A stretch of 64,000 bases of DNA from Actinomycetota bacterium (GTDB taxonomy: Bacteria > Actinomycetota > Acidimicrobiia > Acidimicrobiales > Ilumatobacteraceae). The position numbers and the translations under genes were made by a program. Numbering within the stretch: the first letter of the stretch is position 1; each line of letters begins with the position of its first letter. Shown piece after piece: positions 4,854 to 10,864 of this stretch. The stretch is taken from contig WLIV01000013.1 in NCBI GenBank assembly GCA_009702045.1, positions 1 through 64,000 of the forward strand. The letters are read 5' to 3'. Below the pieces are notes generated by a model. It was not told where the DNA came from and made no database searches. It saw only the letters and a program-made list of their open reading frames with translations.

Positions 4854-5909
4854 TCAAGCGGCGATTTCGCCGGGTTCGAGCTGACCTGGTGCGCGTCGTT
4901 CGTCGGCGAGCATGAGTCGCCAGAGGTGGGCGGCGAGTCGTCGCTTCAAGCAGCGGAGTGCTTCGTTTCGGGTCTTGCCCTCGGCGAGTTTCGCGTCGAA
5001 GTAGTGACGGCCGACGCTGTCACGCATTCGCACTTGGGTGACTGCGACGAGATGGATCGCTGAGTTCAGTTGGCGGTCACCGCTGCGCGAGAGACGGTGG
5101 CGTGCCTTGTCACCGCTGGCCACCTCGATCGGGGCGACACCCGCATACGCGGCGAACGCATCAGCACTGCGGAACCGCGACGCCGGCCCGGTCCGGCCGA
5201 TCAGGCGGACTGCGTTGATCGGACCGACTCCGTCGACCTCTCGAAGCCGAGTGCCGTGCTCATCGAGCGCGTCAGTCATCCGCTTGGCGATGTCAGCCAG
5301 GTTGGCGTCCGCCGCTCGCAAATCGCGAACCAGATCTTGGGCGAGTTCCTTACGCATCCGTTCAGCAGGTGATGACGGTCGCACAGATCTCAGCATCGCT
5401 GCCGCAACCGTGGCCTTCAAAGCGAGCGGGGCGCCACCCGGGATCAGATCACGGATCAATGCGTGGAGCTGGTTCGTCACCCGAACCCGTTGTGCGGCAA
5501 GGTTCGCGCGGCGTTCCTCGAGCAATGCAAACACGACCGTGTGGTCCTCACCGGACACGACCGAAGCATCGCCCTGCAACGCGGCGACGCTCGCCGCGGC
5601 GGACGCGTCGATGACATCGTTCTTGCGGCGACCGCCACGCGACAACTCTCGAACCCGTGCGGTCGCCGTGGCCGACACGTCCCAGACGACCTCATCGCGG
5701 GCAACCAGCCACTGCGCGAGATGACGACCCAAACCGCGTGCGTTCTCGACGGCCCATCGGCGATCGCTGAACTGGGCAGCCCAACGCAACAGCTGGCGAT
5801 AGCCGACCAGCGATGCATCAATCCGAAGCGATGCCACTGGCATGTTCGTAGCCGGGTCCACTGCTGTCGCGGTGTGGGAACTCTTGTGCGGGTCGACCCC
5901 GATGATCAT
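4854..5909 (-). CDS. IS110-family transposase (DEDD recombinase)
   Basis: This 351-residue protein has the IS110 layout. The N-terminal DEDD (RuvC-like) domain begins at the very start (MIIGVDPHKSSHTA, first catalytic Asp in GVDPHK). The C-terminal transposase_20 domain includes GVGPINAVRLIGRTG and the Ser-bearing segment FAAYAGVAPIEVASG, followed by the DRQLNSAIH motif. I chose the ATG at 5909 because it gives the family's canonical N-terminus; a longer frame upstream runs through the element's non-coding leader. IS110 enzymes work with a structured bridge (seek) RNA encoded in that leader. Confidence 0.93.
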   Translation of the reverse strand: MIIGVDPHKSSHTATAVDPATNMPVASLRIDASLVGYRQLLRWAAQFSDRRWAVENARGLGRHLAQWLVARDEVVWDVSATATARVRELSRGGRRKNDVIDASAAASVAALQGDASVVSGEDHTVVFALLEERRANLAAQRVRVTNQLHALIRDLIPGGAPLALKATVAAAMLRSVRPSSPAERMRKELAQDLVRDLRAADANLADIAKRMTDALDEHGTRLREVDGVGPINAVRLIGRTGPASRFRSADAFAAYAGVAPIEVASGDKARHRLSRSGDRQLNSAIHLVAVTQVRMRDSVGRHYFDAKLAEGKTRNEALRCLKRRLAAHLWRLMLADERRAPGQLEPGEIAA

Positions 5910-6150
5910 GACGTTGTCTCCGATCGTGTTCGATGATGGAAAGCCACGGTCGGCATGCCGACTTCCGGAAACCCCGCTGGGGCACCACTCCTCTGTTGAG
6001 CCAGACCGCAACCGGTCGCTGGCGGGAGGCAAACCCCGGGAGAGCCAACCCGAAGGCGGCAGGCGATTCACGAGCCAACCCGACCAGCGACCTACCGGAC
6101 GCTACGAGCCTCAACCCACAACGACCGACACCTCACATACAAGTCGGCGG
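5910..6150 (-). ncRNA. IS110 leader, probable bridge-RNA region
   Basis: About 240 bases upstream of the transposase start carry no gene. They contain several short self-complementary stretches, for example around ccggaaaccccgctgggg and cgctggcgggaggc. In IS110-group elements this position encodes the bridge RNA that base-pairs with target and donor DNA. The assignment rests on position and family knowledge. Boundaries are approximate and I did not fold the RNA. Confidence 0.4.
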
Positions 6151-8625: not shown

Positions 8626-9402
8626 TCACTCGACGATCGCCGCGATCATCTGTGCAAACGATTCGACCTGTGTCATACCTGCCGACCCGCCCCGCTCCAG
8701 GTACAGATCCCGCCGGAGCTCGACCATCACCGACGACACCTCAGGTACACGTCGGTAGTGCTTCGTCGGTACGTAGGTGCCGGCGAATGGCGTGTTCCAA
8801 CCCACGCCTTCGGCGATCCCGCCAAAGCTCTGCTCTGCCACCTCGGACAACCACGCCGGAGTGTGGAAATGATCACTGCCCAAGCACACGCCTGGGCGCA
8901 GCGCAGTCTGGTCGAGTTCGTAGGGCAACGGATCCTGCGGGAACGAATGGAGGTCGATAATGATGCACCGACCGTGCGTGGCCAGCACCCGGTCGACCTG
9001 CTGCTCGATCGCCTTCGCGTAGGGGAAGAAGTAGCTCTCCAGCAACTGCGTGTCGTCCACGCCGATCCCGTGACGAAGAGGTGCACCGCTCGATGTCTTC
9101 GTGTAGACCGCGCCCATGCCCACCCGTCGCATGACCTCCCGCTCGTCGGGGAAACGCTCGGGGTCGACAACCAGCCGCGAGAGTCGGTTCACGAACAGGT
9201 TGACCGGGCACAAGGCGGCAACCCGCTGCGCGATGAGATCCGTGTGATGGTCGGTCATCAGGGCGAGCTCGTTCACCAGTTCGTCATCGGACAGCACGAT
9301 CTGGTCGCGCACAGCCGGCGGTATGACGGTGGCAGCGTGTGGCACGTGGATGAGCACAGGGCTGTCGGCTTCGGTCACCGTCCAGTTCGACATCGTCGAC
9401 AT
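8626..9402 (-). CDS. N-formylglutamate amidohydrolase family protein
   Basis: This 258-residue enzyme belongs to the HutG/N-formylglutamate deformylase fold, zinc-type hydrolases that remove formyl groups from N-formyl amino acids. Metal-site motifs are visible: HVPHAA near the N-terminus, a DHHTD cluster, and IIDLHSFP in the middle. The ATG at 9402 is preceded by GGTGAGAG. The gene follows the amine oxidase by only four bases, so the two are one operon. No hut genes are nearby, so histidine degradation is not implied; the pair may act on an amine or N-formyl substrate. Family confidence is high and substrate confidence low. Confidence 0.85.
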   Translation of the reverse strand: MSTMSNWTVTEADSPVLIHVPHAATVIPPAVRDQIVLSDDELVNELALMTDHHTDLIAQRVAALCPVNLFVNRLSRLVVDPERFPDEREVMRRVGMGAVYTKTSSGAPLRHGIGVDDTQLLESYFFPYAKAIEQQVDRVLATHGRCIIIDLHSFPQDPLPYELDQTALRPGVCLGSDHFHTPAWLSEVAEQSFGGIAEGVGWNTPFAGTYVPTKHYRRVPEVSSVMVELRRDLYLERGGSAGMTQVESFAQMIAAIVE

Positions 9403-9406
9403 GCTC

Positions 9407-10864
9407 TCACCACCCCGCAGCGCGAAACCGTTCCAGCGAGGCCAGCGCAGCGGCCAACACTTCGTCGTCCGACTTCCCCGCCCACGCTCTTGCCTCGGCT
9501 CCGCCGACCAGGCCCAGCAGCACGGGCGTTCCTGCCAACTCGGCGAGATTGTACCACTCGACGAATGAGTCGTCGGCCGCGGCGACACGACTCCATTGCT
9601 CGGCCTTCTCGGTCCACCACGGCTCGTCCCATCGCAGCCACACCTTGTCCAGCAGGCCCATCGCCATCGCATCGATCGCGGCACGATGCGCCTCGGGCAG
9701 CTCCGGTTCGAAGCGGATGGTTCCGGCCTTCAACACGCCGAGTGGGACGGTGACGATCACCCGAGCGGCCGGCAGCGCTTCGCCCGAGGTGCCGGTGACG
9801 ACGACCCCGTCGTCGGCTACGGACACCGTCGCCACCGGCCAGCCCAGGCGCACGTCGAGGCCAGTGGCCAGTGCATCCACCACGGTGCCGTAGCCGCCGA
9901 GCACCAACAGGTCGTCGCCGTCGCTGCCCTCGTCGGTGCCCCACCACGCCGACAGCTGGTCGGCATCGGCCCCGTACTCGGTGCTCACCTCGGTGCGCAG
10001 GAAGTGCACGAGTGCGGCCGGGTCGACACCATCGGCCGCACCCGAGCCATCGATGGCAGCGGCCAGCGACAGGTCGTTGTCCTGCGTGTCGGCCCACTCG
10101 ACCGCGGCTTCCACGGCCTTCGACGCACCGTCCAGATAGCCGTCGGCGGCCACTGTGCCGTCGGCGCCCAGCACCACGTCGTCGTAGGCGAACGGCACAG
10201 CCTTCACACCCAACGCCTTCAGCCGAGCGGGCAGGTCGCTGGCCTTCGTGTCGTGCACCCAGTTGGCGCCACGCTCCACCGGTACCGGCCAGCCATCGGG
10301 CCGCACGGTGTGCACCCGGCCGCCCACACGGTCCTGCGCCTCCACCACGATCACCCGATGTCCAGCATCGGCCAGCGCACGAGCGGCGCTGACGCCGGCG
10401 ATGCCTGCGCCCACCACCACGATCGTCTCGCCGGCATCGGCCTCGTCGTCCACCAGCGCCGCGGCCGCACGACCCGACGCTTGCGCGCCGTGCACCGTCG
10501 CCGGGTTATCGGGGTCGAGCGCCTCACCGGCGAAGAACAACCGGCCGGCCACGGGCTGGGCCAGATCGACCCGCGCCTGCGGGGTGGCGCCCACGGGCAG
10601 GTACGAGTACGAGCCGAGCGCGAACGGGTCGGCCGACCACGACGTGCGCAGCATCGCCGCCGGCTGCGGCACCATCGCCGACGGCAGCGTCGCCGTCGGC
10701 AGCGGCTGCGGCACGGAGCCGGGCAGTTCCCCGGGCGGCGCTGATGGGCCGTTCGTGTTCGCGACGCCGTCGTTCGACGACGTGCAGGCACCCAGCCCGA
10801 GCAACACACCCGCACCCAACCCGGCACGCAGCACCGAGCGTCGTCCGATCGGTCGTTCACGCAT
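9407..10864 (-). CDS. Flavin amine oxidase, circularly permuted, Tat lipoprotein-like
   Basis: This 485-residue protein has the FAD-dependent amine oxidase (monoamine/polyamine oxidase) signatures, but in permuted order. Residues 1-27 are a twin-arginine, lipobox-like leader (GRRSVLRAG ending LGLGAC). Residues 75-135 are the segment that normally ends such enzymes ([15 protein letters not shown] and [18 protein letters not shown]). Only then comes the Rossmann FAD motif ([12 protein letters not shown], about 151-161; [12 protein letters not shown]). The C-terminus stops at [24 protein letters not shown], just where the usual tail would follow. The ATG at 10864 has TATCGT seven bases upstream, so it is probably leaderless. 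It is co-transcribed with the N-formylglutamate amidohydrolase. Confidence 0.88.

Follow-up and report, generated by a model that had tools for sequence, protein, structure and literature searches.

A gene on the minus strand of the window (the whole 64,000-nucleotide stretch of actinobacterial DNA analysed here) raises the question of whether the C-terminal tail of a flavin-containing amine oxidase can come first in the protein. Few flavoenzymes have been studied as thoroughly as LSD1, the monoamine oxidases and the polyamine oxidases, and natural circular permutants, which arise by the same type of rearrangement, are known in other folds. The matches listed from the open-access literature in PMC, and passages of PMC4432964, describe no natural circularly permuted amine oxidase. 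The first-pass annotation of the gene had proposed such a permutation, with the segment that ends ordinary amine oxidases placed at residues 84-127, ahead of the FAD-binding GAGIAG at 152, and had suggested that the rearrangement could make room for an export signal. The gene, its parts and its neighbour are as follows.

9407..10864, minus strand: whole gene, encoding a very probably circularly permuted PF01593 amine oxidase of 485 amino acids plus stop
10784..10864, minus strand: leader by sequence pattern, with RR and the lipobox L-G-A-C, whose Cys27 is predicted to carry the lipid
10460..10675, minus strand: residues 64-135, the C-terminal tail in canonical relatives, with GSYS, GEA and HGA motifs
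10430..10459, minus strand: residues 136-145, last part of the tail helix plus a linker that connects the former C-terminus with the start of the Rossmann segment
9410..10429, minus strand: residues 146-485, FAD-binding Rossmann start and body, with GAGIAG from residue 152
9644..9646, minus strand: Lys407, at the position of the near-flavin lysine of the family
8626..9402, minus strand: neighbouring gene of the N-formylglutamate amidohydrolase family PF05013, beginning 4 bases past the oxidase stop

Order of the segments in the window protein

Translation of the minus strand from 10864 to 9407 gives 485 amino acids ending in ERFRAAGW. The tail motif starts at residue 84, GEALD..TVHGA follows at 113-127 and GAGIAG begins at 152; with the acidic residue E175 and GGR, the FAD-binding motif set is complete. 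Pfam assigns the protein to PF01593 at 235 bits, against a curated cut-off of 19.8, in two stretches, the better of which pairs residues 155-480 with profile positions 1-364 of 443. Members of that family run from Rossmann start through body to tail, an order that the window protein does not follow, its tail coming first, and by profile coverage it is a PF01593 member only as a permuted variant.

The same arrangement emerges from a phmmer search of the sequences of solved structures, among which human LSD2 is the best match. LSD2 residues 337-692 pair with window residues 146-478, and LSD2 residues 699-770 pair with window residues 64-135; both stretches are significant (105.1 and 33.7 bits, respectively), they lie in swapped order, and 6 target residues stand between them. 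The tail therefore lies ahead of the Rossmann start, and the protein ends at the point where a tail would be expected to follow, just as the first-pass annotation, whose coordinates and residue numbers prove correct, had read from the motif positions and from the ERFRAAGW end. In its native order the protein scores 255.3 bits over positions 3-335 of 417 of an HMM built from seven canonical relatives (L032, L036, L049 and L057-L060), while the same residues, cut at 139-145 and rotated, score 340.7 bits over positions 3-413. The rotated sequence covers PF01593 from position 1 to 442 of 443 in a single stretch (247.9 bits) and LSD2 from 337 to 770, again in a single stretch (150.9 bits). Of the rotation controls, canonical L129 scores highest without rotation and permuted L018 after it; L061 and L053 give broken matches, both lowered by the cut between body and tail, and decide little. 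Because two LSD2 stretches are significant and rotation raises the score, the swapped order lies beyond chance.

A second copy of the tail at the true C-terminus had been named in the first-pass annotation as a finding that would speak against permutation. Among ORFs of at least 90 amino acids in 41 regions round permuted genes, no second tail match was found for any of the 40 uncut permuted ORFs, each of which has exactly one tail-to-Rossmann match, the 41st region (L072) being cut by the contig. Two complementary segments in swapped order, with nothing large missing and no second copy, are what characterizes a natural circular permutant, and we conclude that the window protein is very likely such a permutant within the flavin-containing amine oxidases (PF01593).

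Active site and putative reaction

The window protein keeps a lysine, K407, at the position of the near-flavin lysine of known amine oxidases. Across 60 permuted proteins this column holds K in 45, R in 3, T in 3, V in 2, A in 2, L, Q and S in 1 each and a gap in 2 (the 60 come from 63 loci, from which cut L014, canonical L032 and L160, with its internal stop, were omitted), and the lysine is invariant in 14 canonical rows. It is absent from 10 of the 19 permuted proteins read from family f106 (L053-L056, L145, L149, L151 and L154-L156), where V, T, A, L, Q or S stands instead. Since the lysine is missing from these proteins, not all permuted members need be oxidases, and those without it may catalyze another reaction or none. 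The same substitutions, together with an amine substrate that is itself putative, favor a reading in which the fold is kept in a protein other than an amine oxidase, be it a dehydrogenase or isomerase, or an FAD protein without catalytic activity; however, the lysine is kept in the window protein and in 44 others of the 60, and oxidases are the nearest relatives with a solved structure, which makes this reading possible though unlikely. From its motifs and the lysine, the window protein most likely uses FAD to oxidize an amine after Tat export and lipid anchoring, and the putative oxidation would release hydrogen peroxide.

Gene neighborhoods and fusions

The PF05013 gene next to the oxidase was considered as a conserved partner and rejected: of the regions compared, only the near-identical L072 has such a neighbor within 5 kb, and L066 (71 percent identical) is among those without it. 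Because the neighbor is not conserved, no pathway is drawn from it. An IS110-type transposase lies at window positions 4854-6101 (minus strand), approximately 3 kb beyond the oxidase gene.

In a subclade of permuted proteins that lack a leader, one neighbor family recurs in 9 loci, upstream on the opposite strand (the L089 and L080-L087 regions). At the one locus scanned, L089 (3160-13892), this neighbor is a PF04069 substrate-binding gene standing head to head with the leaderless permuted oxidase; ABC transporter genes adjoin the PF04069 gene, and an IspD/IspF gene and an FtsK-like gene lie near. The PF04069 and ABC transporter context hints at an imported amine as the substrate at loci of this type.

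A GNAT acetyltransferase stands in frame ahead of the tail in 4 of the 60 permuted proteins, which belong to families f1 and f21:

L028, 70-2760: GNAT fusion, recognized by PF00583
L030, 1396-4110: GNAT fusion, recognized by PF00583
L047, 850-2892: GNAT fusion, recognized by sequence similarity
L159: GNAT fusion, recognized by sequence similarity

It is conceivable that the permutation is itself functional, in that the moved ends change the face that the oxidase turns toward its membrane tether and open a new N-terminal port, where a GNAT domain could make a single-chain enzyme that acetylates its substrate and then oxidizes it; we regard this proposal as rather improbable. Animals split these two steps between spermidine/spermine acetyltransferase and N1-acetylpolyamine oxidase.

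Predicted structure and proposed fold

Prediction of window residues 60-485 from the sequence alone gave a mean pLDDT of 39.7. An AlphaFold model based on an eight-row alignment (the query, L007 and six canonical bodies from viral contigs) reached 59.4 with the tail unplaced; residues 60-141 are below 50 in this model, and the tail is below 50 in both predictions. The modeled body matches LSD1, LSD2, polyamine oxidases and monoamine oxidases with Z of 16.0-19.1 among the 50 matches listed. The structural matches span model residues 76-426, and, judged from numbering offsets, the modeled body appears to end just before the tails of the matched oxidases.

Sequence, motifs and joint length suggest that the usual fold is likely kept despite the permutation. 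In our model, the tail helix would continue through a brief linker into the first strand of the Rossmann domain, and a single chain would rebuild the usual two-domain fold round FAD, with the new chain ends falling between the last helix of the body and the strand that carries W-x-x-D-P...GSYS. Once the protein had been exported by Tat and anchored by Cys27, the tether would lead to the enzyme via the tail segment, no longer via the Rossmann strand. Alternatively, the front tail might complete the fold of a neighboring subunit by domain swapping, in which case a complete enzyme would form only in a dimer or oligomer, and the predictions, in leaving the tail unplaced, do not fix its partner chain. 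However, much of the joint is tail helix and first strand, and the distance from the tail histidine to GxGxxG is 23-28 residues in 59 of the 60 permuted proteins (L158 has 44); because the joint is short and near-constant in length, it suits closure within one chain, and we consider a domain swap very unlikely.

Distribution of the permuted order

A search for homologues of the same order, proposed along with the original reading, found them in many actinobacterial genomes. At E ≤1e-30, the window's family has matches in 27 of 200 genomes, of which 25 have the permuted order, G157 has the canonical order and G063 is cut by the contig. A junction profile (A1, 23 rows) separates the two orders: against a profile of the same region, 27 of 27 permuted ORFs match in one stretch at 165-215 bits, and 2 of 2 canonical ORFs are split into two stretches at ≤80 bits in the opposite order. 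With A1 at E ≤1e-25, 13 of 296 genomes match in the class (12 with the permuted joint and one, L049, canonical) and 14 of 396 in the phylum (10 with the permuted joint and four, L057-L060, canonical); these class and phylum matches include L040 and L052, with broken or short bodies, and L048, which starts at a contig end. Family f106, counted by match range and with 15 new proteins (L143-L157) read, has matches in 63 of 199 genomes; 61 span the joint, G1016 and G855 match on the tail side only, and the G843 match reaches only position 109. In family f21, 5 of 6 genomes have the permuted joint. The family, class, phylum, f106 and f21 sets overlap, and together they hold 101 different genomes, many counted by match range alone. 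By these matches, the permuted order is common to many relatives in other actinobacteria, and the tail motifs are kept in permuted and canonical order alike. L007, a near relative, comes from an uncultured Acidimicrobiaceae bacterium. Although many genomes with the permuted order are fragmented assemblies, there is virtually no chance that a misassembly, a frame error or a fusion of fragments explains it, since the order is present in the single-contig assemblies G708 and G679, 20 relatives align with the window protein along their full length (31-74 percent identity), and the number of independent genomes in effect refutes such an origin.

Among 72,556 plasmid records, 8 match, on the tail side only, and phages gave zero matches to the permuted-oxidase profile. 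On viral contigs, 3 loci gave partial matches to the profile and 11 matched a canonical query, and the order was canonical wherever both parts were found. The IMG/VR contigs L161-L165 and L064, of putative viral origin, carry canonical-order amine oxidases approximately 30-33 percent identical to the window body. The junction profile also matches 155 solved sequences; in the best 60 of these, the joint is not crossed by any best stretch.

Leader and predicted export

The N-terminus of the window protein has the pattern of a Tat lipoprotein, consisting of RR, a hydrophobic stretch and a lipobox (L-G-A-C) with Cys27, and the first-pass annotation had correctly recognized a Tat/lipobox leader. 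An RR and lipobox leader is present in 39 of the 60 permuted proteins; a simple pattern fits 40, from which L024 was dropped as spurious, its match preceding its likely start. Permuted proteins without a leader comprise an 11-row clade (L020, L022-L027, L029, L031, L034 and L035), a group made up of L028, L030, L033, L046 and L047 (a clade at 100/98) with L158 and L159, and the single proteins L040 (RR, no Cys), L048 (contig end) and L052. Similar leaders were seen by eye in all seven of the canonical actinobacterial relatives used for the HMM, with RR, a hydrophobic stretch and a Cys before the Rossmann strand and a weak lipobox in L032, L058 and L060; the canonical Nostoc protein L061 is without an RR/lipobox leader. 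The seven actinobacterial relatives run leader, body, tail, whereas the window protein runs leader, tail, body. As read from these patterns, leader and permutation vary independently. Because the leader occurs in canonical relatives and is absent from some permuted clades, the proposal that the permutation made room for an export signal is unsupported, while the permutation itself holds at the sequence level in pairwise, profile and rotation comparisons and in homologues.

Canonical relatives and evolutionary history

The canonical-order relatives L032 and L036 come from the window's genus, and their bodies are approximately 33-34 percent identical to that of the window protein. One genome of this genus, G120, holds both permuted L025 and canonical L036 and thereby offers a natural comparison pair. 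We placed the order on a tree of 60 rows, 40 permuted (rotated in silico) and 20 canonical; the tree omits L040, L051 and L052 (short bodies), L002, L004-L006 and L136 (unclear), duplicate places and the later-fetched L143-L160. The order label changes 5 times on this tree, against a shuffle mean of 17, and 0 of 500 shuffles were as low. At least two changes of order are forced by well supported branches, because permuted L048 groups with canonical L129 at 96/92. In the best tree the permuted rows are not one clade; constraining them to one costs 22.15 log units and is not rejected (AU p = 0.104). The likely route would be a tandem duplication from which the leading body and the trailing tail were then lost, and no tandem-duplication intermediate was seen round 40 permuted genes.

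Discussion

Our results place the window protein beside the PF01593 oxidases, which include LSD1/LSD2, the polyamine and spermine oxidases and the bacterial monoamine oxidases. It shares their motifs and, by profile and body model, their domain; in those enzymes the tail comes last, whereas in the window protein it stands before the Rossmann start. A SWIRM domain beside the oxidase domain is a feature of the histone demethylases LSD1 and LSD2, and, unlike in these proteins, SWIRM is not among the 12 Pfam families of the window protein at E ≤0.01.

Profile annotation gives permuted proteins of this kind as ordinary, partly matched amine oxidases. A widespread permuted group would show that the oxidase fold can be opened between body and tail, and the moved chain end marks a site where fusions occur. 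Finally, the presence of permuted and canonical relatives in one genus makes a direct comparison of the two orders possible.
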